Below are positions 29,963-63,674 of a stretch of DNA of 64,000 nt, piece after piece. The stretch covers positions 62,001 to 126,000 of the forward strand of contig NZ_NRRU01000001.1 in NCBI RefSeq assembly GCF_016583785.1, written 5' to 3'. This DNA comes from Rubrivivax gelatinosus. Its GTDB lineage: Bacteria > Pseudomonadota > Gammaproteobacteria > Burkholderiales > Burkholderiaceae_C. Position numbers and translations under genes: made by a program. The notes below the pieces were generated by a model. That model saw nothing but the letters and a program-made list of their open reading frames with translations. It searched no databases and was not told where the DNA came from. Within the stretch, counting starts at the first letter, position 1. Each line of letters begins with the position of its first letter.

Positions 29963-31601
<1,639 letters not shown>

Positions 31602-35670: not shown

Positions 35671-35898
35671 CTACAGCCGCGATGGCTTGCGGATTCGGGC
35701 GGCCTTGGCCGGGTCGCTGGGGACGCCGAGGCCGGCGACGGCGCAGCTGGCGTTCCAGCGCTGGGCCGGGTCATCGGACGTCAGCTGCAGCTCGCGCCGG
35801 CGGCGCGCCGCGCGCGAGGCTTCGGCGCGGGCGCGGCCGGCGGGCGAGGTCAGCTCGGCAGCGAGCTGGCCGCGGTAGTTCGGGTCGAAGGGGCTCAT
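35671..35898 (-). CDS. Small phage protein coupled to the cytosine methylase
   Basis: 75 residues starting MSPFDPNYRGQLAAEL, Arg-rich and helical, with no known domain. Its ATG overlaps the stop codon of the methyltransferase gene (TGATG), so it is translated with it. It could be an accessory of the methylases, from position only. Confidence 0.6.
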   Translation of the reverse strand: MSPFDPNYRGQLAAELTSPAGRARAEASRAARRRRELQLTSDDPAQRWNASCAVAGLGVPSDPAKAARIRKPSRL

Positions 35899-36812
35899 CA
35901 GGCGGCCCTCCGGATCGCTTCGATCAGCTGCGCGGCCTGGGGCGGGCAGACGGCGTTGCCGATCAGGTGCCAGGCGGTCGCTTCGTTCGCCGGCAGTAGG
36001 TAGCCGTCCGGCAGGCCCATCAGCTCGCGTCCCTCGGTGGCGAGCACCATCCGCATGCGTTCGCCGTCGACCACGGCCCAGCGCGCGCGCGTCGTCAGGG
36101 TGCCGATCGGTCGGTCCAGGCTGCGGCCTGTCTCGCCGCTGCCGCTGCCGTAGTACGGAGCGACGAAGCGAGCGCCGAAGCGGCGACGGCCCGCGGCAAT
36201 GCGGGCCAGCGTGCGGGCGCTGCGTCCCGGGCGCTGCACCGGCGACCAGCGGCCGGCGGTGAAGTCGATCGCCGCGGCGGCGGGCCGGTGCTCGCGCTGA
36301 TGCATCTGCAGCTCGATCGGATGACGCGAGCGCGTCGCGACGACGAAAAGGCGGCGGCGCTGCTGCGGGACGCCGGCGTCGGCGGCGTCGAGCACCATCG
36401 GCGCCAGCGCGTAGCCGAGCGCGTGCATCGCGGCGCACCACGCCGGGTAAAGCGCCCAGTTTGAAAAGGCCGGGACGTTCTCGATGACGACGACCGGCGG
36501 CCGGTGGACCTCGGCGCATGTGACGACGGCCCAAGCGGTCGCGCGTTGCGCGTCGTGGTGCGGGCGATCCTTGCCGCGCGCCGGGCTGTGGCCCTGGCAC
36601 GCCGGCGACGCCAGCAGCAGGTCGTGCGCCGGCGCGGCGCGGAAGTCGGCCTGCTGCAGGTCCTGGCATTCGTGCTCGGTCTCGGGGTGATTGGCGGCGT
36701 GCCACTCGACGGCGACTGGCCAGTGGTTCGCGGCCCATAGCACGCGGCAGCCGGCCAGCACCGCGCCGGTGCTGAAGCCGCCGGCGCCCGCAAAGAGGTC
36801 GATGGCGCGCAT
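35898..36812 (-). CDS. DNA (cytosine-5) methyltransferase
   Basis: 304 residues, a Dcm-type enzyme transferring methyl from AdoMet to cytosine C5. Motif I is DLFAGAGGFS (residues 5-14). Motif IV is SPACQGHS with catalytic Cys72 (most relatives read PPCQ). Motif VI is ENV (111-113), motif VIII is QQRRRLF (150-156) and motif X is GNAV near the end. The target-recognition region is short. The gene is coupled by TGATG overlaps to the adenine methylase before it and the small gene after it. No restriction nuclease is nearby, so protection of phage DNA against host restriction is likely. Confidence 0.92.
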   Translation of the reverse strand: MRAIDLFAGAGGFSTGAVLAGCRVLWAANHWPVAVEWHAANHPETEHECQDLQQADFRAAPAHDLLLASPACQGHSPARGKDRPHHDAQRATAWAVVTCAEVHRPPVVVIENVPAFSNWALYPAWCAAMHALGYALAPMVLDAADAGVPQQRRRLFVVATRSRHPIELQMHQREHRPAAAAIDFTAGRWSPVQRPGRSARTLARIAAGRRRFGARFVAPYYGSGSGETGRSLDRPIGTLTTRARWAVVDGERMRMVLATEGRELMGLPDGYLLPANEATAWHLIGNAVCPPQAAQLIEAIRRAA

Positions 36813-37663
36813 CAGGCTGCCTCCTCGAACAGGCCGCCGCGGCTGCGCGCCAGCGCGGCGCTGCAGGCGGGGTTGAGCCATACGACCTCGGTGCGGATCG
36901 CAGCGCAGTCGGCGATGGCCCGGCGCTCGTGGCGCTCCCAGCCTTGCAGGGCCTCGTCGTAGAGCGCGCTCGGATAGCCCGAGAGCACGACCATGCCGAC
37001 GGCCGCCCGCATCCGCTCCAGCAGCGCTGCGTGGTCGTCGTCGGACATCTCGTGCAAGTAGCCGTTGCTCCCGGTCTTGCCGGAGCGGGTGGAGTGCAGG
37101 TACGGCGGGTCGGCGTAGAAGAGCGTGCCAGGCCCGTCCATGCGGTCAACGATGCGCTCCGCGCGGTCGTTCTCGATCAGCACGCGCATGAGGCGATCGC
37201 GCATCGCCGGGATGCAGTCCGCCCAGGTTGCCCACTCCGCGGAGTTCAAGGCACGGCCGTCGGTGAGCCGGGCCCGAAAGCCGGTGCGCGAGACGCGCGT
37301 CGCGGAGTCCGACCCGTGGCCAAGAAACGACCGGACGACCAGCCGGTGCGCGGCGTCGACATCGTCGGTGGGCTCGCCGAACGACCACTCCAGCTCGGCG
37401 CGCGCATACGGCGTTAGCGAGCAGCGGCGCTGCAACTCGGCAGACTTCACCGGGTCCCGGAGCACGCGGAAGTAGTTCACGACGCGCGCGTCGAGGTCGT
37501 TGTAGACCTCGGCGGGAACCGGCGGCTTGAGCAGCAGCAGCGACGCCGCCCCGCCGAACAGCTCGGCGTAGGCCGAGTGCGGCGGGAAGAACTGCGCCAC
37601 CCACGGGGCAAGCCTGAACTTTCCACCGTGGTACCGGAGAGCAGGCCGTCTGATCGCGGACAT
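36812..37663 (-). CDS. D12-class DNA adenine N6-methyltransferase
   Basis: 283 residues, Dam-like. YHGGK (11-15), AELFGGAASL (AdoMet motif, about 33-42), NDLD and the catalytic DPPY (185-188) are all present. It methylates adenine N6; the target is unknown. It begins MSAIRRPALRYHGGK and overlaps the neighbours by one base at each end, in a coupled cassette with the cytosine methylase. Confidence 0.92.
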   Translation of the reverse strand: MSAIRRPALRYHGGKFRLAPWVAQFFPPHSAYAELFGGAASLLLLKPPVPAEVYNDLDARVVNYFRVLRDPVKSAELQRRCSLTPYARAELEWSFGEPTDDVDAAHRLVVRSFLGHGSDSATRVSRTGFRARLTDGRALNSAEWATWADCIPAMRDRLMRVLIENDRAERIVDRMDGPGTLFYADPPYLHSTRSGKTGSNGYLHEMSDDDHAALLERMRAAVGMVVLSGYPSALYDEALQGWERHERRAIADCAAIRTEVVWLNPACSAALARSRGGLFEEAA

Positions 37664-39297: not shown

Positions 39298-42015
39298 TCA
39301 GTGCTTGCCGGTGGGCTTGACGCCCGGCTTGAGGAAGCGGTGGCAGAACAGCACTGCGGCGACGTTCTCGCCGCGCGCGCGGATGCCGCTGTTGACGTTC
39401 TTGCTGTCGAGGTAGAGCCGCGACCGGCTGGTCTTCAGCACTTTCTTCAAGTCGCCGAGCAGGGGCAGCGTCTGCCCGTGCTCGCGGGCGACCTCGTAGA
39501 GGTGGTTGAGGTTGACGGCGATGACGTCGTCGTCGCGCGCGTGGTTGAGCGCCTGGAAGTTCTCGAGGTACTCGAACACCTCCCAGAAGCCGGCGACCAT
39601 CGGGTGGTCGGCGCTGATCGCGGCCTGACGCTCCACTGCCATCGTGTCGATCTGGGCGTGCAGCGCGGCGAGCTGCTCCTCGCTGATCGGCGCCACCAGG
39701 CGCAGCGCGTCGGCCAGCGCCTTGATCTGCGCGTGGTTCTTCGCGATCCGGGTGCTCTTCACGAGGCCCTGCAGGTGCGCCTCGTGCACCGGCGTGCGCT
39801 CTGCCACCGTCGACAGGACCTGTGCCTCGCGCATCGCGGCGCGCAGCACGAAGCCGCTCACCTGCTCTACCGGCATGCTCTCCAGCGTGATCGCCGCTTC
39901 GCGCGTCGCCGGCGTCTGCCCCTTGCGGTCGAAGTCCAGGTGGACGATCCGCTGCAGGATCGCGTCCGAGGCCTGCACCTCGTTGTTCTGGCTGATGACG
40001 ATCGCGCCGCGGAAGGGCGGCTCATAGGTCTCGTTGCCGCCGGTGGCCATGCCCCGGGCCCGCACGCTGCGGCCATTGAAGCAGGTCTTCAGCTCGTCCC
40101 AGTCGAAGCTCTTGACGTGCGGGTTGTCGCCCGTGCGCTCGCGGTCGCTCTCGATCAGCACGACCGGCAGGTTGGACACCTGGGCGAAGTTCCGGGCCCG
40201 GGCGGCCAGCGATGACTTCGACGGGTCGAAGCCTTCGTAGTCGCGCCGACCGACGAGCTTCCACAGGAACTCGATCAGCGTCGACTTGCCCGCGCCGGCC
40301 TCGCCGACCACCTCGAGGAAGGGGTAGCTCTTCTGCGAGCCGCGGATCTGCTCGGCGAACAGCGCGCCGAACCAGAAGGTGAGGGCGGCCAGCCCCTTGG
40401 CGCCGAAGCAGCGCCACAGCAGGCCCAGCCAGTCGGCGCGGTAGGCCTGGGCGTCCCGGTTGATGCTGAGCGCGACCGACTGGTTGAGGCTCTTCAGCGC
40501 GAGCTTGTTGCCGAGGTCGAAGAAGTCTTCGGCGTTGATCTCGTGCACCTGGCCGCCCTGCACCGCGACGTCGCCCAGGACGTAGGCGCCGTGGGTGGCC
40601 GAGTAGCCGATGAAGTCGACGGTCTCGACGCGCTTGATCGCGTAGAGCTGCCTCTCCATCATCCGCTCGAGCATCTGGCTCGAGCCGGTGAAGACGGCGC
40701 CCGGCGCGATGCCCAGCAGGCGCTTTTTGAACTCCGCCGCGGCGCTGAGCTGCGCTGCGCTGAAGGTGTTCTTGACCGGCGCCGCGTCGTGCGGGAACTC
40801 GACGCGGAAGTAATACCAGCTCTCGTCGGTGAGCTTGTTCTCCTGGAAGTACAGCGGCACCGGGTAGCAGTTGGCGATCGGCCGGATGACGTGGCTCTTC
40901 TTCAGCGCCTCCTCGCGCAGCTCGTCCTCGCTGTGCTTGCCCTCGTCGTCTTTCTCCAGCTGCTGCAGCGCCCTGTTGAAGGCCTCGACATCGAGCCGGA
41001 ACCAGTACAGCCGGCGCTTGAACTCGAAGTCGAACTCGGTGCGCGCGCCGCCGCTGTGGCGGTACATCAGCAGGCCTTTGGCGCTGGCGCTCTCGGCAAT
41101 CAGCAGCGCGCCGTGGTAGCGGTACTCCTCGAGGTCCTTGGCCTCCAGGCGGCCGCGCTGGTGCAGGTCGTTCCAGTCGAGCTTGCCGCGGCCGGTCTGC
41201 GGGATCTGCGCGGCCTCGCACACCCAGCCAGCCTTGCGCGCCAGGTCCACGTGCTTGACGGTGAAGCGGCGGCCGGCGGCGTCGCCGTCCAGCGCCCAGA
41301 CCAGCTTCAGCTCGACGCCACGGGCCGACACCGCGATGCGCAGGTCCTCGAGGCTCTTGTCCGGGTAGTTGTTGCTGCTCAGCGCAGCGACTGCCGGGAT
41401 GCCGTGATGGAAAAGCGCGATCGCGTCGAAGATCCCCTCGACGATCCACAGTTCCCGGCCCTCGGCCGGCAGCATGCCGGTCGGCTGCCACCAGCGGCCC
41501 TTGTACGAGCTGCCCGCCTTGAAATGCGCCTTCTTCTTCCCGAAGCGCTCGGGCCTGTCGATGATCCGCTGCCAGTAGTCGGCGCCGACGGCGAAGCGGA
41601 CGGTGGCACTGCCGGCGCCGCGGCCGTTGTCGGCCTCGGGGTCGAAGTAGGTGTCCTGGCTGTACCAGCCGTTGATCAGCGCGAGCTGGAAGCCGCGCCC
41701 CTCGGACATGTACAGGTCCGCCGCGGCCCGCGGGTTCGGCGGCACAGCCGGGTTCGCGGCGGCCTGGTCGCGCGCGCGCTTCGTCCAGTCGCTGAAGAGG
41801 CCCGGATACAGCTCTTTGACGTGCGCCTCGTAGCCGCAGTTGTTCAGGCGACCGCAGCGCAGCACCCATGGGTGCTCGGCCTTCGTGTACAGCTCGCGCT
41901 TGCCGCAGCTCGGGCAGGTGCCCTTGCGCAGCCAGCGCTCCTCGCCGGAGCCTTCTTCCTTGAACCCGAACTCGCCCAGCTCGCGCAGGACGGACTTGAG
42001 CAGGTCGGGACTCAC
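39298..42015 (-). CDS. Toprim-type primase/helicase (phage replication protein)
   Basis: 905 residues combining a primase and a helicase. The N-terminal zinc finger uses Cys34, Cys37, Cys54 and Cys60. A Toprim domain (about 185-265) contains WIVEGIFDAIAL and VWALDGDAAGRRF. A helicase/ATPase domain carries the Walker A motif GEAGAGKST (about residue 572). A GTG at 42015 starts the protein by overlapping the previous stop (GTGA). It is the main replication gene here. P2 itself uses the rolling-circle nickase gpA, which is absent from this window. Confidence 0.88.
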   Translation of the reverse strand: MSPDLLKSVLRELGEFGFKEEGSGEERWLRKGTCPSCGKRELYTKAEHPWVLRCGRLNNCGYEAHVKELYPGLFSDWTKRARDQAAANPAVPPNPRAAADLYMSEGRGFQLALINGWYSQDTYFDPEADNGRGAGSATVRFAVGADYWQRIIDRPERFGKKKAHFKAGSSYKGRWWQPTGMLPAEGRELWIVEGIFDAIALFHHGIPAVAALSSNNYPDKSLEDLRIAVSARGVELKLVWALDGDAAGRRFTVKHVDLARKAGWVCEAAQIPQTGRGKLDWNDLHQRGRLEAKDLEEYRYHGALLIAESASAKGLLMYRHSGGARTEFDFEFKRRLYWFRLDVEAFNRALQQLEKDDEGKHSEDELREEALKKSHVIRPIANCYPVPLYFQENKLTDESWYYFRVEFPHDAAPVKNTFSAAQLSAAAEFKKRLLGIAPGAVFTGSSQMLERMMERQLYAIKRVETVDFIGYSATHGAYVLGDVAVQGGQVHEINAEDFFDLGNKLALKSLNQSVALSINRDAQAYRADWLGLLWRCFGAKGLAALTFWFGALFAEQIRGSQKSYPFLEVVGEAGAGKSTLIEFLWKLVGRRDYEGFDPSKSSLAARARNFAQVSNLPVVLIESDRERTGDNPHVKSFDWDELKTCFNGRSVRARGMATGGNETYEPPFRGAIVISQNNEVQASDAILQRIVHLDFDRKGQTPATREAAITLESMPVEQVSGFVLRAAMREAQVLSTVAERTPVHEAHLQGLVKSTRIAKNHAQIKALADALRLVAPISEEQLAALHAQIDTMAVERQAAISADHPMVAGFWEVFEYLENFQALNHARDDDVIAVNLNHLYEVAREHGQTLPLLGDLKKVLKTSRSRLYLDSKNVNSGIRARGENVAAVLFCHRFLKPGVKPTGKH

Positions 42016-42476
42016 GCTGCACCCGCTCCGGTCGCTGCCTTCGGCTTGTTGGCGTTGAAGCGCACGGTGCAGCGGCGGCGCTCGACGGTGGTCGTCAACT
42101 GCACCGCCTCGTAGCTGCCGCCGTCTCGGCACTCGACGAGCTTCCAGCCCAGCTCGAGCAGCGCCGCCTTGAGCCGCATGCCCCAGTCGCCGTCGAACAT
42201 TGGTTCGGTGAGATAGACGGCCTTCTCGAAGGTGCCGGTCGTGCTGACCTGGCCGTAGGAGACCTTCACGCCCTTCGCCGCCAGCGCCGGACGGAAGGTG
42301 TCCAGCACCTGCAGCTGTCCAGCGAGGCGTTCCAGCACTGCGACCGCTGTGCGGTGGCGTTCCAGCTCGTGCTCGAGCGCCGCTGCAGCCAGGGGGGCGG
42401 CGTCGCGCCGGGCGAGCTGTTGCATGACGCCCTCGTGGGAGGACTTGGCGGGTGATCGGCGAGTCGTTGTCGGCAT
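42012..42476 (-). CDS. Hypothetical phage protein before the primase
   Basis: 154 residues, helical N-terminus and a beta-rich C-terminal half ending in a basic tail. An internal ATG at 42425 (MQQLARRDAAPL) has a better ribosome-binding site (GAGGG) and may be the real start, giving 137 residues. It is translationally coupled to the primase-helicase. Function unknown; the 119 bp upstream show nothing. Confidence 0.65.
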   Translation of the reverse strand: MPTTTRRSPAKSSHEGVMQQLARRDAAPLAAAALEHELERHRTAVAVLERLAGQLQVLDTFRPALAAKGVKVSYGQVSTTGTFEKAVYLTEPMFDGDWGMRLKAALLELGWKLVECRDGGSYEAVQLTTTVERRRCTVRFNANKPKAATGAGAA

Positions 42477-42595: not shown

Positions 42596-42943
42596 TCATC
42601 CGGTCGCCTCGAACAGGTCGCCGGTGGGGTCGCTGGCGGCTTGGCCAGCGGGCCATTCGTCGGCGCCGCGCGCGGGCGGCAGCGCCGAGATTTGCGCGGC
42701 GATGGCGCCGCGGCGGATGTGCGTCGAAAGCGGGATGTGCACGTCGCTTCGTGGCGTCGACGACAGGCCGATCGTGCGCACCGCCTCGACCGAGACGACG
42801 AAGCGGTGGTTGCAGTCGGGGTTCGTGCAGAGGTAGTCGACCTCGGTCAGCACGCGCGAGATGCGGCGATCGCGCTGGCCGACGCACCGCGCATCGCAGT
42901 GCGGGCAGCGGACACCGAGGCGTGCAGCGCGCGGGCGGCTCAT
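42596..42943 (-). CDS. ogr: Ogr/Delta-like zinc-finger late transcription activator
   Basis: 115 residues. Four cysteines are spaced C-x2-C-x22-C-x4-C (Cys13, 16, 39, 44), the exact zinc-finger pattern of P2 Ogr and P4 Delta. Those proteins bind late promoters and recruit RNA polymerase through alpha. It presumably switches on the O-to-D late operon. The start MSRPRAARLGVRCPHC overlaps the stop of the upstream gene by 4 bp. The C-terminal 45 residues are longer and more acidic than in P2 Ogr (72 residues in total). Confidence 0.85.
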   Translation of the reverse strand: MSRPRAARLGVRCPHCDARCVGQRDRRISRVLTEVDYLCTNPDCNHRFVVSVEAVRTIGLSSTPRSDVHIPLSTHIRRGAIAAQISALPPARGADEWPAGQAASDPTGDLFEATG

Positions 42944-43146
42944 CGGGTGCCTTCCGGCTTCGGCGCCGCTACATGCACCAGGTTCAGAGCGCGGCCGCGG
43001 CCGGTGCTGGCGCGCGCTGCGCGGCGCAGCCTCACCTTGGCCAGCCATTCCGCAGCCTGGTGCACGTCGGCAAGGCCCTGCGACTGGCGCACGCGCTCGA
43101 GCATGTCGAGGTCGGCGTCTGAGAGCGTGATTGCGTGCTCGGGCAT
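42940..43146 (-). CDS. Small phage protein coupled to the Ogr gene
   Basis: 68 residues, MPEHAITLSDADLDMLERVR onward, helical and resembling a short DNA-binding or ribbon-helix-helix type protein with a basic tail (RLRRAARASTGRGRA). It overlaps the Ogr-like start by 4 bp. Function unknown. Confidence 0.6.
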   Translation of the reverse strand: MPEHAITLSDADLDMLERVRQSQGLADVHQAAEWLAKVRLRRAARASTGRGRALNLVHVAAPKPEGTR

Positions 43147-43664: not shown

Positions 43665-43726
43665 TGTGTATCCTCGTACGCGGTAGTGGATACACAACTT
43701 TAGGTTGCCGAAACACTACTTGTCAA
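43665..43726 (-). promoter_or_regulatory. Early promoter and operator-like inverted repeat of the immunity region
   Basis: Leftward promoter: TTGACA (43721-43726 read in reverse), an 18-bp spacer and TAAAGT (43697-43702). Directly downstream lies an inverted repeat, TGTGTATCC (43665-43673) and GGATACACA (43688-43696), with 14 bp between the arms. The inner arm covers the predicted transcription start. The stretch is AT-rich (about 45% GC at 43681-43740). This is the expected layout of a repressor-controlled lytic promoter. The repressor's own promoter is not evident. Confidence 0.7.
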
Positions 43727-44072: not shown

Positions 44073-44147
44073 GCCGGTGGCATGGTCGCCGGTTCGCCGT
44101 CGCACTCGCGGCGGCGTAGATCCAGCGCTTTGACGAAGGGAGCGAAG

Positions 44148-44669
44148 ATGGCGCTAAAGCCATGCAAGGAATGCAAGCAGGAAGTCTCGACCAGCGCGAA
44201 GACGTGCCCGCATTGCGGGGTCAAGAACCCCACGGTGACCTTGAAGCAGCAGCTCTTGATGGTGCTCGGGCTGTTCATAGCAGCAGTCATTACGCCGACG
44301 CTTCTCTTCGGTGGCGGCGGGGGTGACCAGGCCAAGACCGCCGCGCCGACGAAGAGCGATGCGGACTGTCGCAAGGACCTCGCCTGCTACGCCGAGAAGG
44401 GCGTGGTGGCTGCCGGGGTTTACTGCAAGGATGATGTCGAGCGGCTGGCCAAGCACTCGGTGAAGTGGGTGGACGGCACCTTCGAGCAGAAGTTCAGCCA
44501 CTACCGCTGGGCCGACCAAGCGCAGGGGATCGTCACCTTCATCGGGGATAAGGCCGAGTTCCAGAATGGCTTCGGGGCCTTCGCGCGCGTGATCTACGAG
44601 TGCGACCTCAACGTCGCAACGAACAAGGTGATCGACGTGCGAGCCCGTGAGGGCCGTCTTCCGCGTTAA
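44148..44669 (+). CDS. Zinc-ribbon membrane protein, lysogenic cargo
   Basis: 173 residues. An N-terminal zinc ribbon (Cys6, Cys9, Cys20, Cys23: CKECKQEVSTSAKTCPHCG) is followed by one transmembrane helix (about 35-54), a Gly-rich linker and a soluble domain of about 110 residues with three Cys. The ATG at 44148 follows AAGGGAGCG. It is transcribed with the repressor, away from the lytic genes. That suggests expression in the lysogen, for example in exclusion or cell-surface change; the actual role is unknown. Confidence 0.7.
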   Translation: MALKPCKECKQEVSTSAKTCPHCGVKNPTVTLKQQLLMVLGLFIAAVITPTLLFGGGGGDQAKTAAPTKSDADCRKDLACYAEKGVVAAGVYCKDDVERLAKHSVKWVDGTFEQKFSHYRWADQAQGIVTFIGDKAEFQNGFGAFARVIYECDLNVATNKVIDVRAREGRLPR

Positions 44670-45082
44670 CCGCGGGCCCGGTTGCTGCGGCTGATGGCCT
44701 CGACGGCGACGCGCTGCAGCCACCCGGAGCGCGACTCACGGGCGCGGTGCGCCGCTTCGTCGACCCTGCGCAGCACGCGGGACGGCAGGGAGATGTTCAC
44801 CCGCTCCACGCGGTCTTCCAGCACGCTCTGATCGACGTCGGCCAGCGCCCAGATGGCGCTGGCGAACCGCTCGCGTTCGCGGTGCAAGTCGATCGACCTC
44901 GGCAGCGGAACGTCGCGCCCTTCTGCTGCCGCTTCGTCGATCCAACGTGCGATCGCGGCGCTCGCGGCTCGGATGGCGTCGTCGACGCCGGCGCCCACAG
45001 CGCTGCAGCCCGGCAGGTCAGGCACCGTGACACGCCAAGTGGTCCCTGGCCTGTCGGGCTCGATGGCGATCGGATACTTCAT
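44666..45082 (-). CDS. HicB-like antitoxin without HicA (1)
   Basis: 138 residues. The N-terminal HicB fold (WRVTVPDLPGCSAVGAGVDD) is a degraded-RNase-H-like domain that normally inhibits the HicA RNase. A C-terminal ribbon-helix-helix (VERVNISLPSRVLRRVDEAA) would bind DNA. No HicA-sized gene adjoins it. It may act as a regulator. It is convergent with the zinc-ribbon gene, overlapping by 4 bp. Confidence 0.82.
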   Translation of the reverse strand: MKYPIAIEPDRPGTTWRVTVPDLPGCSAVGAGVDDAIRAASAAIARWIDEAAAEGRDVPLPRSIDLHRERERFASAIWALADVDQSVLEDRVERVNISLPSRVLRRVDEAAHRARESRSGWLQRVAVEAISRSNRARG

Positions 45083-45360: not shown

Positions 45361-46179
45361 ATGAGCGTCAAGAAGACGAGCCCCGTCTATTTCTACGGCA
45401 GTAACGTCGGCGCCCGCGAAGGTAGTCCGTTGGGGCCGTACCTCCAGCGGCTGCATCGCGAACACGGCGCACACTTGCCCCCGGTACCCTTGTCGGCAGG
45501 GTTGTTCCAGGTCCGGGACCTGGCGAGCAGCGGCCGCACGACGTGGCGCGGTACGTTTGCCCATCTTCGAGACGATGCACCGCACATCGTGGTCGACGGT
45601 GTAGAGCGCAGGCTCAGGGTCGGGGACGACACCCGATTCGTCGAGAAGTGCCACTTCATGTACTTCGGCCGTGCCAACGTGATGGCATGGCAGTTCGTGA
45701 AGGGCATCGGTACCAACTCCAGGTTGCAGGATTACCTGAGCGAGGTGATTGGGGAGGCCGTTCTCCTGCCCTGCCGGATGAATGCGCCAGAACTTGATCG
45801 GGTTCTCAGGAAAGAGATCAAGGAGATCGAGTTCTGGTACCAGAGGTTGGGGGAGCCCGACACCGGTGCCCCAGAGTGGAGCAACAAGGCCCTACGGATG
45901 CTGTCGAGCGTGGGGGCCGGAAAGGCGAAGTTCATACTGCAGGCAGATCGCGGCGAGCGCTTGGCGCAGGTCGCTAAGCAGTACCTGATGCAGATGGTCC
46001 AGGGGACCGAGTTCTCGAAGGTGAAGGTCAAGTTGACTGACGAGGTGGACCCCATCGAGTTGTTCATGGCGCCGGTGAGGGACAGCCTGACCTGCGAGTT
46101 GATCGGCCGGTATCCTCTGCCCGACGACGTGTTTCGGGGGCTGTTCGAAGCCTTCAACCGACACTTCGACTTGACATAG
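45361..46179 (+). CDS. RexA-like protein, candidate phage-exclusion gene
   Basis: 272 residues. I recall lambda RexA as 279 residues; the order of elements looks alike, with a beta-rich N-terminal half, RFVEKCHFMYFGRANVMAWQ in the place of the RexA FVEGDTIGFAR segment, then TNSRLQDYLSEVIGEAVLL and a helical C-terminal half. This resemblance is by eye and weak in identity. The next gene, 16 bp on, is a four-helix membrane protein of RexB size. Local GC (about 58%) is well below the phage average, which indicates recent acquisition. In lambda RexA is a DNA-binding sensor that triggers RexB on superinfection. Alternatives include other two-gene exclusion systems such as Kiwa. Confidence 0.55.
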   Translation: MSVKKTSPVYFYGSNVGAREGSPLGPYLQRLHREHGAHLPPVPLSAGLFQVRDLASSGRTTWRGTFAHLRDDAPHIVVDGVERRLRVGDDTRFVEKCHFMYFGRANVMAWQFVKGIGTNSRLQDYLSEVIGEAVLLPCRMNAPELDRVLRKEIKEIEFWYQRLGEPDTGAPEWSNKALRMLSSVGAGKAKFILQADRGERLAQVAKQYLMQMVQGTEFSKVKVKLTDEVDPIELFMAPVRDSLTCELIGRYPLPDDVFRGLFEAFNRHFDLT

Positions 46180-46195
46180 ACGACGAGGAGCGAAC

Positions 46196-46624
46196 GTGAG
46201 GCCCTGGCTGGTGCCGACCCTGGCTTGTATTGCGGCAATGCTCGCCGCGACTTGGGGGGGAGTGCGTCCGGTGCCGGCGGACACCGAGAGCACGCGTGCC
46301 ATCGCCGGCGCAGCCACATCGGTGGGTGCGACGCTGCTTGGCTTCATGCTTGCCGCGCTCGCCGTGCTGGCCAGCGTGAATAACACGCACCTGGTCCAGA
46401 TGATGCGTCGCAGCGGTCACTACCGTGATCTCCTTGAGACGCTGTTCGCCGGCTGCGCCGTCATGCTGGCATGCACCGTCCTCGGCTTTGGCCTGCTTCT
46501 TGGCATCACTCCCTCGAAGCTCGTGATCAGCCTTCTGGTGGCTGTTCATGTGGGCGCCCTGGCTTCTGTCTTGGACGCGGGCCGCAAGTTCTGGCTCTTG
46601 CTCGCGCACCTCTCGCAGGACTGA
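46196..46624 (+). CDS. RexB-like four-helix membrane protein
   Basis: 142 residues against 144 for lambda RexB. Four hydrophobic helices lie at about 5-20, 40-60, 81-103 and 108-126. The cytoplasmic loop between helices 2 and 3 is basic (HLVQMMRRSGHYRDL), matching the basic loop of RexB. GTG start with a GAGGAG site 7 bp upstream, 16 bp after the RexA-like gene, so the two form an operon. In lambda RexB is proposed to form ion channels that depolarise the infected cell. Function here is inferred. Confidence 0.55.
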   Translation: MRPWLVPTLACIAAMLAATWGGVRPVPADTESTRAIAGAATSVGATLLGFMLAALAVLASVNNTHLVQMMRRSGHYRDLLETLFAGCAVMLACTVLGFGLLLGITPSKLVISLLVAVHVGALASVLDAGRKFWLLLAHLSQD

Positions 46625-46651: not shown

Positions 46652-47044
46652 ATGCAGTACCCCGTTGTGCTTCACACCGAAGATGGCGTCCGCTACGGCG
46701 TCACCGTCCCTGACCTGCCCGGCTGCTTCTCGGCCGGCGACACCTTCGATGACGCGCTGTCCAGCGTGCGCGAGGCGATCGACTTGCATCTCGAAGGGCT
46801 AGCCGAGGACGGTGAAGAACTGCCGGTGGCTGCGCCTGTTGCCAGCCATCTTGGTAATCGCGATTACGCCGGCGGCGTCTGGGCTGTTGTCGACGTCGAT
46901 ACGGGCCGTTTCGACGGCCGGGCGGAGAAGATCAACATCACCGTTCCCCGTCGCATCCTGCAGAAGATCGACACGTTCGCCAAGGCGAACGGGAAGACCC
47001 GCTCCGGCTTCCTCGTCGACGCGGCCGTGCGCGCAATGCGCTGA
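46652..47044 (+). CDS. HicB-like antitoxin without HicA (2)
   Basis: 130 residues with the HicB fold (YGVTVPDLPGCFSAGDTFDDAL) and a C-terminal ribbon-helix-helix (INITVPRRILQKIDTFAKAN). It lies 27 bp after the RexB-like gene on the same strand, so it may share its transcript and regulate it. No HicA is present. It is only about 30-40% similar by eye to the other HicB-like gene, and both flank the Rex-like pair. Confidence 0.82.
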   Translation: MQYPVVLHTEDGVRYGVTVPDLPGCFSAGDTFDDALSSVREAIDLHLEGLAEDGEELPVAAPVASHLGNRDYAGGVWAVVDVDTGRFDGRAEKINITVPRRILQKIDTFAKANGKTRSGFLVDAAVRAMR

Positions 47045-47056
47045 GCCGCCAGCGCG

Positions 47057-48100
47057 TCAGCCGACGTCCTCGACCGTCGCCCCAGCGGTTCCCTCGGGGA
47101 TTCCGGTCTCCAGTTCGACGGCAGTCGTGAAGCCGCTGCTGTCGCTGATCGAGTGGGTGACCTTCACCGCCAGCCAGTCTGCTGCGTCGATCGGCGCCTT
47201 GAACCCCGCCACCTTCACCGGCGTCTGCGGCGCCAGCGCCGGCTGGCCGTGGGCCAGCGTCAGCTCGAGCGTGGCCGCGCCGCGCTGGATGCGCGCCCAC
47301 TCGGCGCGGGCGCCGGCAAGCGCGTCTGCCTCGCTGGCGAAGGTGTCGGCCAGGCGCTTGGCGTTGGCGTCCGTGCCGACGGTGACGCCGCGGCGCTTGG
47401 CGCGCTTCGGGTCGTGCCAGTAGGCGCGCACGCCTGTGTAGGCGTCTCGTTCCGCCGCATGCCACCGGTGCGTGTCGCCGTCGGAACGCCTGATCGTCAG
47501 CTGCTGCATCGGCGCGCCGGCGGCGCTGCGGGCGCCGACGATCGGGAGGAAGAGGAGCCGCGCCGCTTTCACCGTCGCGACCGCGTCGTAGCGCCGCGCC
47601 AGGCGGTTGATGAAGGCAATGTCGCTCTCCTGCGTCTGGTCCACGTGCGCGATTGCGCGGCTGGCCAGCGCATCGGCCACCTTGGCTTCCAGCGAATGCC
47701 GCTTCGCGACCGTGGCGACGATCGCGCCCAACGTCGTGCCATGCCAGGAGGCATCCCGGCGCGTGCGCAGAGTGCCGGACAGCTCGGCACTGCGACCACG
47801 GATCACCACTTTGTCCGGCGGTCCGCTGTGCTCGGCCTCGTCGACGATGAACGTGCCCTTGTCGACCAGCGGCTGCCCGGCCCAGCCGATGGCGAGGGTG
47901 AGCGTCACCCCGCGCCGCGGGATCTCGAGCTGGCCGTCGTGGTCGGTCAGCTCCAGGTCGAGCTGGTCAGCCTGGCCGCCGCGGCACTCGGTGAGCGTGA
48001 GGCTGCCCAAGCGTGGCTCGATGGCCCGCGTGATGTCGCGGCCGCCCAGGCTGATGCGGTAGTCGGGCGCCCGCAGCGCCGCCTGCTGCTCGCCGCTCAT
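47057..48100 (-). CDS. D: Late control protein D (tail hub protein)
   Basis: 347 residues of the P2 gpD family, a baseplate hub that links the tail tube to the spike. MSGEQQAALRAPDYRISLGG starts the protein. The family order is seen through ELTDHDGQLEIPRRGVTL, the middle VDQTQESDIAFINRLARRYD and the LysM-like C-terminal part. It is the last gene of the late operon, with its start overlapping gene U by 4 bp. Confidence 0.92.
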   Translation of the reverse strand: MSGEQQAALRAPDYRISLGGRDITRAIEPRLGSLTLTECRGGQADQLDLELTDHDGQLEIPRRGVTLTLAIGWAGQPLVDKGTFIVDEAEHSGPPDKVVIRGRSAELSGTLRTRRDASWHGTTLGAIVATVAKRHSLEAKVADALASRAIAHVDQTQESDIAFINRLARRYDAVATVKAARLLFLPIVGARSAAGAPMQQLTIRRSDGDTHRWHAAERDAYTGVRAYWHDPKRAKRRGVTVGTDANAKRLADTFASEADALAGARAEWARIQRGAATLELTLAHGQPALAPQTPVKVAGFKAPIDAADWLAVKVTHSISDSSGFTTAVELETGIPEGTAGATVEDVG

Positions 48101-48516
48101 GACGTCGTCGCGGTGCGCTGCCCGATCGAGTCGGTCAGGTCGTCGTCGAAGCGCTGCAGCGTGATGCCGAACTCGATGCGTCGCGCGACGCCGGTGTCGG
48201 TGAAAAGCGTGCGGGTCTCGCTGATGTCCTCGATCACGTAGGCGCCGAAGACGCGGCCGGCGCCGTCGACGAGCGGCCAGGCCTTGCCGCTGTTGGCCAT
48301 CTCGCGCAGCTGGTCGAGCGACGCCGCCTTGCCGGCGAACTCGGGCACGACGACGCCGGACAGCGTGATCGTGTCGTCGCCGGGACCGACGTACTGGCGG
48401 CCGGCGCGCGCGCCGACGCGGGCGTTGCTGGCGTGTCGCCAAGCGGTCCTGCGCTGCAACTCCTGGTAGGCCAGCGTCTGCAGCGAGAAGACGAACTGGC
48501 CGAGGCCCATCATCAT
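48097..48516 (-). CDS. U: Tail protein U
   Basis: 139 residues of the P2 gpU family, a tail-terminator or tube-associated protein. MMMGLGQFVFSLQTLAYQEL is typical. Three successive ATG codons occur; the first (48516) has GGAG 8 bp upstream. It overlaps gene D by 4 bp. Confidence 0.9.
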   Translation of the reverse strand: MMMGLGQFVFSLQTLAYQELQRRTAWRHASNARVGARAGRQYVGPGDDTITLSGVVVPEFAGKAASLDQLREMANSGKAWPLVDGAGRVFGAYVIEDISETRTLFTDTGVARRIEFGITLQRFDDDLTDSIGQRTATTS

Positions 48517-48532: not shown

Positions 48533-50932
48533 TCAGTAGTCGGTGAGCGTGGAGCGCCGGCGCGATCTGGCAGCCGCGTCGCGGCGGTCCAGCTCGGCGG
48601 ACACAGCCCGGGCGATCGCCTGGGGGTCCATGCCGGGCAATGGGTAGATCGCGATCTGGTGCGGTCCGCCAGCGCCGGCCGCGGTGGCGCCGCGGCTCCC
48701 CGCGGTGAGCGGCGCGGTCCGCTGCGTGCTGGCCTTTGCGGTCCCGGCGCTTGCCGTGGGTGCGCCTTCCCCGGCAGCTTCGGCCAAGCCGAGGGCCGCA
48801 CGGCGCACGTCCGCCTGGCCCTGCTCGATGCCGATGGCCGCCCCGGCTGCGACATCGCCGCCGGCGGCGATGAAGACCCGGCTCGGGCTCTTGATGCCGA
48901 GCTTTGCCTTGAACCAGTTCAGCGCGACGTCGGCGACGCCGCCCACGGCCTCTCGGACAGCCGCGATCGAGTTGGTGATGCCGTTGGCCAGGCCCAGGAC
49001 GATCTCGCGCCCAGCGGCCGCGAACCGCGCCGGCAGGGTCGTGAAGAGCGTGCCCACACGGTCCCAGTTGCTGTACAGCAGCCAGGCGCCGGCGGCCAGG
49101 GCGGCCACGGCCAGCATGACCGGGTTGGCCAGCATCGCGCGGCCCAGCATCAGCATCGCCGAGCCGATGCCCTGGATGACACCCATCAGGATCGGCCCCT
49201 GCAGGCCGAGCATCGCCCAGCTGTAGCGCAGAAGGGCGAGAGGGCCCAGCACCGAAGCGACGGCCAGAAGCAGGCCGCCGGTCACGACGAGCAGCACGCC
49301 GACGACGGCGCCGGTCTTCAGGATCGCCGCGGTGAGCTGCGGGTGCGCGTTGGTCCAGGCGCTGACGCGCTCGAGCACCGCGCTGGCCGTGTCCATGACG
49401 CTGACGAGCGCCGGCCGCAGGCTGCGGCCCATCGTGCTGGAGGCCTCGAACATCCGGTTGTTGGCCATCTGCCAGCGCGCCGAGAGCGTGTCGACGCGCG
49501 CAGCGAACTCGCGCGCCATCGAGCCGCTGGCCTCCATGCCGTTGGCGAGCTGCATCTGGCGCCGCAGCTCCTCGGGCTTCGTCACCAGCTTGGCCAGCGT
49601 GTCGCTGTGCTCCATGCCGACCAGTTCGACCATGACGCCGACGCGCTTGGACTCGGGCAGCTTGCGGATCGCCTCGACGACGCTGAGCAGCGTGCCGGTG
49701 GCGTCCTTCGCCATCCCGGACTGGATCGCGCCGCTGTTGAGGCCGATCTCGGAGACGGCCTCCTGGAACTTCTTCGTTCCCTTCGTGGCGGCCGCCAGCT
49801 TCTGGGTGATCGCGTTGATGGCGGTCGCCGCAGCCTCCGGCCGCTCGCCGAGCGTGAGCAGCGTGCTGGCCAGCGCGGCGGCGTCCTTCGACGACATGGC
49901 GACGGTGCTGACGACGCCGCTAATGCGGTTCAGCACGTCGATGATTTCGTTGCCCTTGCTGATCGCGTTGTCGTCGAGGTAATTGATCGCGTCGGCCAGG
50001 CCTCGGATGCCGGTGATCGGGATCTGGAAGTTCTTGGCGACCTTGCCCATCTGCTCCGAGATCTCGGCGGGCACCGCGTCGAAGGCGATCGCCAGCTGCG
50101 CGGCGAGCCGGGTGTACTCGGCGAGCTGCTCGGTGGGCACCTCCATCCGCGCGCCGGCGGTCACCATGTCGGCGATCTCGGTCGTCGCAAGCGGGATCTC
50201 GCGGCCGAGCTGGTGGATCTGCCGTGCCATGTCCCAGTAGAGGGACGTCAGCTCGCCGGTGGGGCTGCGGGCGCCGTTGACCTGGCGGGCGATGCCCAGC
50301 ATCGCGTCCTCGAAGCGAGAGTATTCGCGCACGGCCTGGCCGATGGGCGTCAGCGTCGCAGCGCCGGCGGCTGTGGCCCCGACGCCAGCGGCGGCGATCT
50401 GGCCGGCGCGGGCCTGGATCTGGTCGCGCCGCGCCGCGATCGCGTCGATCTGGCGCTGGCGCGCGGCGAGCGCCTGCAGCTTCGCCGTCTGCTGTGTGAT
50501 GGCGGCGTTCGCCTTCTCGGTCTCCGCCGCCAGCCGCGCCTGGGCCTCGGCGACGTTGCCGATGCCCATGCCGTTCATGCGAGTGCGCAGCTGCACCAGC
50601 GCCTGGCGCTGGGTCTCGTAGGCGGCCGTCTGCTTGGCGATGGCGCGCTCCTGTGCCGCGATCTGCCGCGTGGACGCGGTACCAGCCGTGCGCATGCTGT
50701 CCAGCTGGGCTCGGAGCACCTTGAGCTTGTTGGTGGTCTCGGCGAGCGCGGCCTGCTGCTGGCGCATGCCGTCGATCGCACGCTGCTGGGCGTTGAGCTC
50801 GGCGACGCGATCGCGCGCGGCCTTGAGCGCCGTGGCGGCGCCCTTGGAGCCGCGCTCGATCGCGCGCAGCGGCGCCGTCGCCTTGTCGAGGGCCTGCAGG
50901 ATCACCTGCAGGCGAAGATCGTTCGCCGCCAT
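48533..50932 (-). CDS. T: Tail tape measure protein T
   Basis: 799 residues that set tail length. The N-terminal 150 residues are coiled coil (RAIERGSKGAATALKAARDR), followed by a phage-minor-tail domain (about 250-480) and hydrophobic segments (about 520-620) typical of tape measures. It lies between E+E' and U, as in P2. Confidence 0.93.
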   Translation of the reverse strand: MAANDLRLQVILQALDKATAPLRAIERGSKGAATALKAARDRVAELNAQQRAIDGMRQQQAALAETTNKLKVLRAQLDSMRTAGTASTRQIAAQERAIAKQTAAYETQRQALVQLRTRMNGMGIGNVAEAQARLAAETEKANAAITQQTAKLQALAARQRQIDAIAARRDQIQARAGQIAAAGVGATAAGAATLTPIGQAVREYSRFEDAMLGIARQVNGARSPTGELTSLYWDMARQIHQLGREIPLATTEIADMVTAGARMEVPTEQLAEYTRLAAQLAIAFDAVPAEISEQMGKVAKNFQIPITGIRGLADAINYLDDNAISKGNEIIDVLNRISGVVSTVAMSSKDAAALASTLLTLGERPEAAATAINAITQKLAAATKGTKKFQEAVSEIGLNSGAIQSGMAKDATGTLLSVVEAIRKLPESKRVGVMVELVGMEHSDTLAKLVTKPEELRRQMQLANGMEASGSMAREFAARVDTLSARWQMANNRMFEASSTMGRSLRPALVSVMDTASAVLERVSAWTNAHPQLTAAILKTGAVVGVLLVVTGGLLLAVASVLGPLALLRYSWAMLGLQGPILMGVIQGIGSAMLMLGRAMLANPVMLAVAALAAGAWLLYSNWDRVGTLFTTLPARFAAAGREIVLGLANGITNSIAAVREAVGGVADVALNWFKAKLGIKSPSRVFIAAGGDVAAGAAIGIEQGQADVRRAALGLAEAAGEGAPTASAGTAKASTQRTAPLTAGSRGATAAGAGGPHQIAIYPLPGMDPQAIARAVSAELDRRDAAARSRRRSTLTDY

Positions 50933-51953: not shown

Positions 51954-53138
51954 TCAGGCGGCCGAGGTGGCGACGCTGCTGGCGAAGTCACCGTAGTAGC
52001 GGTCGGTGATGCGCTGGCGGAAGGCCAGATCCTCGATCGGCGGCACCGGCGTGTAGTCGTAGTCGATGACCAGCTTCCCGGCCTTCAGGCGGTCAGCGGT
52101 GTTGATCTCCTCGTCCAGCCAGGCCTTGCCATCGAGGATGTAGCCGCCGGTCTTCAGCTCGCGCAGCTTGGCGTTGACGCCGTCCAGGATGTCGCGCACC
52201 GAGCCCGGCAGCAGCGGCAGGTCGACGGCGGCGAAGTGCGCCTCGGCGATCGTGTCGGCCAGGACCTGCGCGGTGCGGGTCGACGACTCGAAGGCGAAGT
52301 TGGTGTCCTCGCTGCAGGTCCGGCTGCCCCAGAAGCGGTAGCCGCCCTGGTTGATCAGCGTGGTGATGCCGGCCGCATTCAGCACGCCGGCGTCGGTCGA
52401 CTCGCTCTGCAGGTCGAAGAAGACGTCCTTCGTGAGGCCGTTCGGCCCGTTGACGACGACGTTGGAGATCGTCTTGTGCCAGCCGAACTCTTCGTCGATC
52501 TTGGCGCGTAGGCCGAGGGCATAGGCGACGGCCGGCGCCGCAGCGGTGGCGCTCGCGGTCTGGTCCCAGGCGGTGAAGTCGGGGTAGATCAGCATCAGCT
52601 CGCGCTGGCCGAACTGCTTGCGGTACGTCACCGCCTCGGGGATGGTCGCCGCCCCGTGGCCGGAGGCGTAGACCATGCTGCGCAGCTGCTGGGCGATCGC
52701 TACGATGGCAGCTGTCACCTCCTGCGTGTCGAGGCCCGGCGCGCCCAGGATTCGCGGCTTGACGCCGAGCTGAGCCTGCGCCGCCAGGAGCGCCTTGGCG
52801 CCGGTGTACTTTCCATCTGCGCTGACGCCGCCGATGACGTTCGTGGTGGTCTTCGCCGCGGTCTCGCCCTCGGCGACGCGGACGACCACGACCACGGGCC
52901 GCGCCTGGTCCGCGATCGCCGTCAGCGACTTGGCCAAGGTGCCCCGCGAGCCGGCTTTGCTGATGCCGGCCCAGATGTTGGTGACCAGGACGGGCGTGTC
53001 GAGCGGGAAGACTGCAGCGTCGGCGTCTTCGGCCGTGGCCACGAGGCCGATGATGGCCGTCGCGACGGTGCGAATGGTGCGGGCGCCTTCGCTGAGCTCG
53101 AAGACGCGGACGCCGTGGTGGTAGGTGGTCAGGGACAT
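51954..53138 (-). CDS. FI: Tail sheath protein FI
   Basis: 394 residues of the P2 FI contractile sheath family. It begins MSLTTYHHGVRVFELSEGAR and carries the conserved subtilase-like sheath core, with the AWDQTASATAAAPAVAYALGL region and the C-terminal PPIEDLAFRQRITDRYY. A 35-bp gap precedes it. Confidence 0.95.
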   Translation of the reverse strand: MSLTTYHHGVRVFELSEGARTIRTVATAIIGLVATAEDADAAVFPLDTPVLVTNIWAGISKAGSRGTLAKSLTAIADQARPVVVVVRVAEGETAAKTTTNVIGGVSADGKYTGAKALLAAQAQLGVKPRILGAPGLDTQEVTAAIVAIAQQLRSMVYASGHGAATIPEAVTYRKQFGQRELMLIYPDFTAWDQTASATAAAPAVAYALGLRAKIDEEFGWHKTISNVVVNGPNGLTKDVFFDLQSESTDAGVLNAAGITTLINQGGYRFWGSRTCSEDTNFAFESSTRTAQVLADTIAEAHFAAVDLPLLPGSVRDILDGVNAKLRELKTGGYILDGKAWLDEEINTADRLKAGKLVIDYDYTPVPPIEDLAFRQRITDRYYGDFASSVATSAA

Positions 53139-61944: not shown

Positions 61945-62652
61945 TCACGCGCCGTCGCCGCCGGCGGTCTTCAGCCGGCGTTCGAGGCGCTCGATGTCCT
62001 TCTTCACGCCAACGCCCTCGAACAGCTCGAGCGCGCGGCGCAGGGGTGGCAGGGCAGCCTGGGCGACTTCCGCCGGCAGCGCCGCGATGTCGACGTCGCT
62101 GGCCCACAGCCGGCCGATCAGCGCGTAGCCGATCGCCTTCTGCAGCTTCGCGCGCGCCTGGTCGGGCGCGTCGTGCTCTGCGGTCAGCGCCTCGACCTGC
62201 TGCAGCACCTGCAGGGCGGTCTCCGCCGGGATCTTCCCGGCCAGCGCAGCGCCGGCAACTTCGTCCAGCAGCAGCGTCGGCAGCTTGCGGTCGTACTGGT
62301 CGGGCAGCGTGAGGCCGTGGCGGATGGCGTACTCGGCGACGGCCAGGCCGCGGGCGAAGTCGCCCACGTCCAGGTACCACACGAGCACCGTCATCAGCAC
62401 CAGGTCCTGCGCGCCGCGGCCGTGCTCCAGCGCGGCGGTCACCCAGGCGTCGTAGACCGGCAGGAAGCTGCGCTTCGCTTCGATCTTGCGCTCGACGCTC
62501 TGGATGTCCTTCAGCGCGCGTTTGTGCTCCACCAGCTGCGCCAGCATCAGCTCGTAGGCGCTGCCGGTGACGGTGGCGCCATGCGGCGTAGTCGCCGCCG
62601 CCCGCTCCGCGAGCTTGCGCTCGCGGGCGAGCATGACCGGGCTCTTGGCCAT
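61945..62652 (-). CDS. M: Terminase endonuclease (small) subunit M
   Basis: 235 residues of the P2 gpM family, which cuts cos DNA with the large subunit. GSAYELMLAQLVEHKRALKD and EHGRGAQDLVLMTVLVWYLD are family segments. The 94 bp between M and L hold only GC-rich sequence. Confidence 0.9.
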   Translation of the reverse strand: MAKSPVMLARERKLAERAAATTPHGATVTGSAYELMLAQLVEHKRALKDIQSVERKIEAKRSFLPVYDAWVTAALEHGRGAQDLVLMTVLVWYLDVGDFARGLAVAEYAIRHGLTLPDQYDRKLPTLLLDEVAGAALAGKIPAETALQVLQQVEALTAEHDAPDQARAKLQKAIGYALIGRLWASDVDIAALPAEVAQAALPPLRRALELFEGVGVKKDIERLERRLKTAGGDGA

Positions 62653-62663
62653 GCGATTCCCCG

Positions 62664-63674
62664 TCAGGCGAGCTGCTCGATCTTCTCGACCAGGCCGACC
62701 AGACCGTAGTCCTCGACGACGTAGGCGTCGTTGCTGGACTCGTAGTTCTCGATCCGGTCGCGCTTGGCGTTGTCGACCACCGTGCGGCGGCGGCCACCTT
62801 CCTGCCAGTAGATGGACAGGTTCTTGAAGGTCGAGATCAGCACCGTGCCTTCGGGGAAGTAGGGCACCTGCACCGGCTGCAGGCCACCCAGCCGCTTGGC
62901 GCCGATGAGCACGTCGGCGGCCACCTTCTCCGTCGCTTCCTGCGAGTCGTTTACCAGCGGGAAGAGCTTGTCGTGCATCAGGTCGCGCGAGACGAACGCG
63001 CGCAGGCCCGGGTCTTCGCGGTACCAGGGGTCGAGCAACTGCACCGCGTCGTAGACCAGGGCGTCGAGGTTCTTGTAGTCGGCGCCGGCGCCGGGGCCGA
63101 AGGTGACCTTGCCGGCGGTCTTGCCGCTGTCCAGCACGCGCGGATCGGCCGCGTCGCGGATCTTCTGCAGCCAGCCGATGTTGACGTCCTGCAGCAGCGG
63201 GTGCGTCGAGAGGTTGGTCTCGTTGGCTGCTGCGACACCGTGGAAGCCGATGATCATGCGGTCCAGCGCTTGGCGCTGGATGATCGCGTCGCGCACCCGC
63301 TGCTGGAAGTCGGGGAACTTGGCCCAGGCGTCGAGTTTCGCGTAGGAGAGGAAGGTGTCGAAGTCGGTCTTCCGGCAGATGTAGCCGTCGGCGTCCATCG
63401 TCGAGATGTCACGCGGTGCGCGGTCCTTCTGCGTCGTGTCGGTACGACTGGCCGCCGGGCCGCTGACGCCCAGGCCGAGCTTTTCGCCCTGCAGCTCGCG
63501 CACGCCGACGATGTTGATCTGCGAGAGGAACGCGCTGGATTCCTGGATCTTCGTCTCCAGCGTCTGCTGGACGCTCGGGGCGACGGTGAACTGCTTCTCG
63601 GCGCTGTCGACGCCGGAGAGCTTGGCGAGCTGGGAGAAGTAGGCGTTGACGACCGCGCGGGTTTCGTTGCGCAT
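62664..63674 (-). CDS. N: Major capsid protein N
   Basis: 336 residues of the P2 gpN family, HK97-fold. It starts MRNETRAVVNAYFSQLAKLS; P2 N is cleaved near residue 31 by the O protease. Further family marks are FPDFQQRVRDAIIQRQALDR and MIIGFHGVAAANET. Confidence 0.95.
   Translation of the reverse strand: MRNETRAVVNAYFSQLAKLSGVDSAEKQFTVAPSVQQTLETKIQESSAFLSQINIVGVRELQGEKLGLGVSGPAASRTDTTQKDRAPRDISTMDADGYICRKTDFDTFLSYAKLDAWAKFPDFQQRVRDAIIQRQALDRMIIGFHGVAAANETNLSTHPLLQDVNIGWLQKIRDAADPRVLDSGKTAGKVTFGPGAGADYKNLDALVYDAVQLLDPWYREDPGLRAFVSRDLMHDKLFPLVNDSQEATEKVAADVLIGAKRLGGLQPVQVPYFPEGTVLISTFKNLSIYWQEGGRRRTVVDNAKRDRIENYESSNDAYVVEDYGLVGLVEKIEQLA

Follow-up and report, generated by a model that had tools for sequence, protein, structure and literature searches.

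Genomic context of the gene pair

The window (the whole 64,000-nucleotide stretch of Rubrivivax gelatinosus DNA analysed here) carries a P2-like prophage, recognised as such in a first-pass annotation of the sequence and borne out by PHROGs matches to tail sheath, tape measure, tail protein, major head protein, small terminase and primase genes (Table 1). The integrase is of the serine-recombinase type, and its gene overlaps at one end the 3' end of a tRNA-Met gene (29963-30039); P2 itself has a tyrosine integrase. The right end of the prophage and its attR site were not found, the contig stopping first at window-equivalent position 69471. The prophage also encodes a DNA methyltransferase (35898-36881; phrog_116), and a Dam-like frame was seen by eye past the window end at about 67649-68452.

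Between the tail protein gene and the repressor-like HTH gene, which are on opposite strands, lie two ORFs encoding proteins of 272 and 142 amino acids and separated by 16 bp. Both starts are preceded by purine-rich stretches that by eye resemble ribosome sites. The tight operon described in the first-pass annotation is therefore found at its expected sites, on the repressor strand and, as proposed, some 1.3 kb downstream of the repressor, the HTH gene ending 1289 bp ahead of the pair. The pair has a GC content of 62.7% compared with 70.3% in the prophage part of the window (30001-64000); a pocket of about 58% GC, as first reported, exists in its lowest 300 bp (57.7%; 59.4% in the lowest 500 bp) but does not extend to the pair as a whole.

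Genes for HicB-like proteins flank the pair on both sides, one of them beginning 27 bp 3' of the RexB-like gene. Both products also have weak ribbon-helix-helix matches, and no HicA was recognised beside either gene. No HicB was recognised by eye 3' of the pair in the other loci read, and the downstream HicB-like gene is probably a neighbour outside the core pair. A third HicB-like frame was seen by eye near the contig end (L035, window-equivalent 68513-68983).

Table 1. Features of the prophage and of the gene pair, in window positions
Feature	Position	Strand	Basis
Serine-recombinase-type integrase	30018-31601		phrog_95, DNA invertase match
Primase	39298-42132		PHROGs
Transcriptional regulator	42596-43048		PHROGs
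Possible repressor operator, inverted pair GTGTATCC ... GGATACAC upstream of repressor	43666-43695	+	Rarity in window
Repressor-like HTH protein, 109 aa	43743-44072	+	HTH_31, E 6.3e-8 (Pfam)
195-aa protein, zinc-ribbon-like at its start, lying between repressor and pair	44082-44669		phrog_13160
Second HicB-like protein, other flank of pair	44666-45082	-	HicB_lk_antitox
12-bp copy of candidate operator half-site, TGTGTATCCACT, 72 bp 5' of RexA-like start codon	45277-45288	+	Exact match
RexA-like protein, 272 aa (DUF6731 relative), ATG start	45361-46179	+	ORF call
RexB-like four-helix membrane protein, 142 aa, GTG start	46196-46624	+	ORF call, profiles, AF2 model
Most conserved stretch of RexB-like protein (helix 2 and following loop, residues 46-81)	46331-46438	+	Alignment A6
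HicB-like antitoxin, 3' of RexB-like gene	46652-47044	+	HicB_lk_antitox, E 1.8e-46
Tail protein	47057-48442	-	PHROGs
Tape measure	48533-50932		PHROGs
Tail sheath	51954-53138		PHROGs
Small terminase	61945-62652		PHROGs
Major head protein	62664-63674		PHROGs

The membrane protein is a RexB homologue

The 142-aa protein is a four-helix homologue of RexB. The PADLOC RexB profile matches it at E 1.1e-4, and within its family 23 of 26 members are matched at E 0.01 or better (best 5.2e-8); the Pfam RexB model (PF15968) gave no match to it at E up to 1. A control HMM built from six lambda-clade RexB proteins only listed 25 of the 26 members at 4.1-23.7 bits (P0030 being absent) and scored the window protein at 11.5 bits, against at most 2.6 bits for reversed sequences and at most 3.1 for unrelated membrane ORFs of the loci. 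The profile-profile comparison suggested at the outset supported the relationship to RexB, with a probability of 55% (E 1.2e-4 local, 1.9e-5 global) that dropped to less than 1% when the RexB alignment was reversed; the probability for the family against lambda RexB alone was only 4.5%.

The AF2 model of the protein (pLDDT 89.9) has long helices at residues 5-20, 30-60, 75-101 and 108-140, and the basic loop previously noted after helix 2 is occupied by a short helix (65-73). Conservation peaks in helix 2 and this loop (Table 1), and the residues invariant in the family are T46, G49, F50, A56, L66 and G74 (alignment A6).

The soluble protein has a predicted RexA fold and belongs with DUF6731

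Comparison of a structural model of the 272-aa protein with RexA had been named as a check, and RexA (8TWQ) was indeed its best PDB match, followed by RdgC (Foldseek), which is described as a known structural relative of RexA (PMC11077077). The Foldseek TM-score was only 0.35. The protein is accordingly predicted from its model to have the two-domain, RdgC-related fold of RexA.

The by-eye sequence resemblance to RexA reported in the first-pass annotation did not hold up. An hhalign comparison of the family with RexA, represented by one or by seven sequences, gave probabilities of 1-2%; hmmsearch in both directions scored hardly above shuffles, with reversed and shuffled controls; and neither the Pfam RexA model (PF15969, E up to 1) nor the PADLOC RexA profile (E up to 10) matched the protein. 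The PADLOC profile recognised none of the five RexA-like proteins tested. As there was no RexA profile match, and hhalign gave 2% against seven RexA sequences, we left the protein out of the RexA sequence family; its relation to RexA is consequently one of fold, partner and gene order and not one of sequence. Aligned by eye only, FSDISLRAKDE of lambda and FSKVKVKLTDE of the window protein place R219 of lambda RexA, described as a DNA contact, opposite K224, and K221 opposite T226.

The closest sequence relatives of the 272-aa protein are DUF6731 (PF20505) proteins, which are 34-44% identical to it. The window protein itself has no Pfam match to DUF6731 at E up to 1, and its homology to the family runs via P0002, which shares 42% identity with it over 97% of the query length and reaches 46.6 bits with the model (cut-off 27). 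Because it falls below the model while its close relatives pass, we consider it a divergent DUF6731 member.

Conservation of the pair across phages and prophages

Further loci were collected by protein and profile searches, giving 16 distinct candidates with the window included. L012 (DUF6731 match, E 9e-4) was dropped before counting as its match lies inside an 808-aa frame judged unrelated, leaving 15. No locus was counted twice: Aaphi23 and its copies are L001, L008 and L009, the window's own entries are L003 and L030, L038 and L039 repeat AUS531phi, and L040 and L041 are at the sites of L010 and L011, respectively; none of these last four was counted again. A membrane partner was defined as an ORF of 116-196 aa with at least three hydrophobic segments, whose possible start lies no more than about 140 bp from where the RexA-like gene ends. 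A membrane ORF follows the RexA-like gene directly in all 15 loci (14/14 tested, plus L042 by eye, where hydrophobic segments were not part of the count), always with the RexA-like gene first. By comparison, a closely similar test on 97 other ORFs of at least 250 aa (14 loci, shadow frames included) succeeded once. Since homologues exist for both proteins (27-63% identical in the case of the 142-aa protein) and the arrangement recurs so much more often than among the control ORFs, both ORFs are genes and not chance frames.

The 26-member family profile scored 12 of the 14 partners at 33.8 bits or more, the best reversed control reaching 12.4. Eight of these 12 were themselves in the profile; those independent of it are the partners in Aaphi23 (118.2 bits), AUS531phi (60.2), L037 (36.2) and L031 (33.8). 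The L011 partner (15.3 bits) only just exceeds the best reversed control and that of L010 (9.9 bits) falls short of it, so neither is clearly RexB by profile. The RexA-like gene of L011 (1139-1929, minus strand) is broken, with an open fragment of 133 aa, and a membrane ORF still follows it. In a viral structure library, a single phage, Siphoviridae sp. ctylc9, supplies the best match of either model: A0A8S5S8L2 for the soluble protein (E 1.2e-16) and A0A8S5S8H0 for the membrane protein (E 1.9e-3, probability 1.00; no match of the latter model was below E 1e-3).

An unrelated, conserved function in the neighbourhoods of homologues would have spoken against a Rex-like system. Instead the pair is kept, and nine of the 15 loci have a repressor-like gene upstream on the same strand (the window, called by Pfam; Aaphi23 and AUS531phi, by annotation; L005, L006, L007, L014, L031 and L042, by eye). 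Nothing lies between repressor, RexA-like and RexB-like genes in Aaphi23, AUS531phi, L006, L007, L031 and L042, as in lambda. This proximity, together with the described ability of lambda RexA to bias the bistable switch independently of RexB, would suit a soluble protein that mainly tunes the lysis-lysogeny switch of the prophage by non-specific DNA binding, exclusion being minor. However, no repressor was recognised in the stretches read, some of them short, of the other six loci (L015 and L037 among them), and the membrane partner is kept in every locus. We therefore regard such a role as improbable.

The pair is found in very different genomic settings. One copy (L037) is in the tailless Vibrio phage 10N.286.54.F4_PE001 (Varidnaviria) and is 25% identical to L031 (E 1e-5), suggesting that the pair may have crossed viral realms; it sits beside a putative integrase (L037:1389-2896). 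In Brachymonas the pair (L015:2386-3706) lies between gapA and a nitrilase-like gene, as read by eye, and no phage genes were recognised on this 5.3-kb contig. The L010 pair is probably in a Mu-like prophage, judging from a neighbour read by eye. Genome G063 contains two different pairs (L010/L040 and L042), each adjoined by a gene which, by eye, we take to be like phage Gp37/Gp68 (DUF5131). The pair is rare, being detected with alignment A5 in 2/399 genomes of the order and with A9 in 3/369 genomes of the class (one of them, G389, broken), the own genome included in both counts. The Pfam model gave 3/369 for the class, one being the L012 match, and 0/61 for the relatives, a set that includes the own genome, which the Pfam model also misses.

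Comparison with described Rex-like systems

Rex exclusion, by which lambda RexA-RexB keeps other viruses from multiplying in its host cell, was reportedly first met about 70 years ago in the T4 rII observation of Benzer. The sizes, order and position shared with lambda rexA-rexB, on which the first-pass annotation was based, are confirmed: the proteins have 272 and 142 aa (279 and 144 in lambda), the genes are 16 bp apart (15 bp in lambda) with rexA first, and the pair is on the repressor side; to these can be added the predicted RexA fold and the four-helix RexB homologue. The window pair differs in its P2-like host phage, in having no detectable RexA sequence similarity and in the other genes and 1.29 kb that separate it from the repressor. 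It is possibly a separate transcription unit, whereas lambda rexAB is transcribed with cI.

Five RexAB-like systems have been described so far according to a 2026 paper (PMC12894663). The same paper describes RexABpp (PP_5643-PP_5644) of Pseudomonas putida prophage P1, in which both genes are required for defence and deletion of either sensitises the host to phages; RexApp is a DNA-binding protein, its over-expression leads to membrane damage by RexBpp, and the two-hybrid tests described there showed no interaction between them (PMC12894663). RexApp was not explained by BLAST and was linked to RexA by HHpred at 98% (PMC12894663). By this published description, RexABpp resembles the window pair in its BLAST-invisible relation to RexA, its four-helix membrane partner and its place downstream of a repressor, in that case CI-like and with two genes between. 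Judging by locus tags, hicAB2 is close to RexABpp with HicA-HicB complete, whereas the window has HicB-like genes and no HicA was seen. The systems also differ in that hhalign, in contrast to HHpred for RexApp, did not link the window family to RexA.

Sbash gp30/gp31 and CarolAnn gp44/gp43 are likewise described as two-gene prophage defence systems in which a four-helix membrane protein is the proposed channel. Defence fails when Sbash gp31 carries R70A or D73A, between helices 2 and 3 (PMC6426596), and this functionally important loop corresponds in placement to the conservation peak of the 142-aa protein. A Sbash protein of 165 aa ranked sixth (E 0.33) among the structural matches of the membrane model. 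The RexA-like partners of Sbash and CarolAnn are larger (372 and 370 aa, as described). A DUF4747 motif has been reported for Sbash gp30 and lambda RexA (PMC6426596) and was not found in the window protein by Pfam search. Haemophilus phage Aaphi23 has the same pair, annotated as hypothetical (ORF16/ORF15), directly after cI, and hhalign relates these to the window families with probabilities of 98.7% and 95.4%. Its RexA-like protein is about 20% identical and has no Pfam DUF6731 match of its own.

A literature search that left aside bioRxiv preprints and most subscription papers found nothing on DUF6731, nothing linking Aaphi23 with RexA and nothing linking a Rex-like pair with a P2-like prophage. 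The earlier statement that no Rex pair was known in P2-like phages is in keeping with the last of these results, but RexAB-type systems outside lambda had already been published. What is added here to these known systems is the P2-like prophage, the DUF6731 family and a RexA that is invisible to profiles.

Proposed function of the pair

We conclude that the P2-like prophage very probably carries, as a cargo operon on the side of its repressor, a diverged system of the RexAB type, which would act by exclusion (abortive infection). The diverged Rex-like pair envisaged in the first-pass annotation is thus upheld by the top PDB match to RexA, the RexB relationship and the neighbourhoods of homologues. 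The RexA/RdgC fold, the RexB homology and the gene order were computed here; sensing, activation and exclusion are carried over from other systems, above all RexABpp and then lambda, Sbash and CarolAnn. By analogy with these systems, the 272-aa protein is proposed to be a DNA-binding sensor and the 142-aa protein a channel or pore effector. A dimer of the RexA-like protein would clamp DNA, as inferred from all four systems, and sense intermediates of phage invasion, either DNA or DNA-protein. It would then switch on the RexB-like protein via its cytoplasmic loop, and a RexB-like oligomer would open the inner membrane, leading to growth arrest and so stopping the infection. DNA binding and exclusion are described as not strictly linked in lambda RexA mutants, which makes the sensing step uncertain and the weakest part of the proposal.

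Sequence does not reveal which of the two proteins acts first, and the roles might be reversed as described for mycobacteriophage Butters gp30/gp31 (PMC12894663), the soluble protein being the antiviral effector that the membrane protein holds inactive. We consider this quite improbable, as conservation in the membrane protein peaks in helix 2 and the loop, where the Sbash changes abolish defence (PMC6426596), and in four of the five described systems it is the membrane protein that acts as effector (PMC12894663). The pair might instead be another two-gene membrane defence or toxin system, either Kwa-like or a HicB-linked toxin-antitoxin, that merely resembles RexAB. The HicB-like gene close behind the pair, the commonness of four-helix membrane proteins, whose structural matches are weakly specific, and a weak match of the 142-aa protein to PDC-M53B, a PADLOC candidate defence family (E 0.0053; 4/26 family members, best 0.0026), are in its favour. 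Against it, neither protein matched a Kwa profile of PADLOC at E up to 10, the other loci read showed no recognisable HicB beside the pair, and the best PDB match of the soluble model is RexA. No Kwa chain was among the structural matches listed, a listing that still allows a Kwa fold. Overall this explanation seems very unlikely. A decayed, non-functional remnant, as might be suspected from a 272-aa protein that scores below the DUF6731 model when its close relatives pass and from the broken copy in L011, is just as hard to credit in view of two full-length open frames with conserved core residues and start signals.

A candidate operator and its implications

The RexAB-type system proposed above may have its own link to the repressor. 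The motif GTGTATCC occurs three times in the 64 kb, a number reached in 0/100 shuffles, and two of the copies form an inverted pair (43666-43673 and 43688-43695) adjoining a leftward promoter-like site upstream of the repressor. The half-site copy TGTGTATCCACT ahead of the RexA-like gene matches 43685-43696 exactly over 12 bp on the other strand. Such a 12-bp match common to both upstream regions arose in 4/300 shuffles, for a copy that was spotted in hindsight; if two mismatches are tolerated, the 12-mer has three matches, a number equalled in 14/100 shuffles. A search ahead of the pair found no sigma-70-like promoter, and no operator copies like those of the window were found in L005 and L014. 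As an operator element the half-site copy is suggestive only. If the operator is real, the repressor would control the pair as a transcription unit in its own right, in contrast to lambda.

A wider reading takes DUF6731 to supply the RexA-fold half of a Rex exclusion family so far unrecognised, spanning lambdoid, P2-like, probably Mu-like and tailless Varidnaviria phages and a bacterial chromosome, and the pair in the window to be separately regulated by the operator half-site copy. Taken jointly, we regard these two propositions as doubtful because no promoter-like site was detected before the pair and the mismatched half-site is not rare. Were both true, exclusion would be tied to the state of the repressor without being co-transcribed with it as in lambda. 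Should DUF6731 proteins be the partners of RexB with the RexA fold, the family would be larger than sequence tools make it, and its natural variants in several distinct kinds of phage could be used to find both trigger and channel. This would also provide a testable function for a Pfam family that has none assigned.
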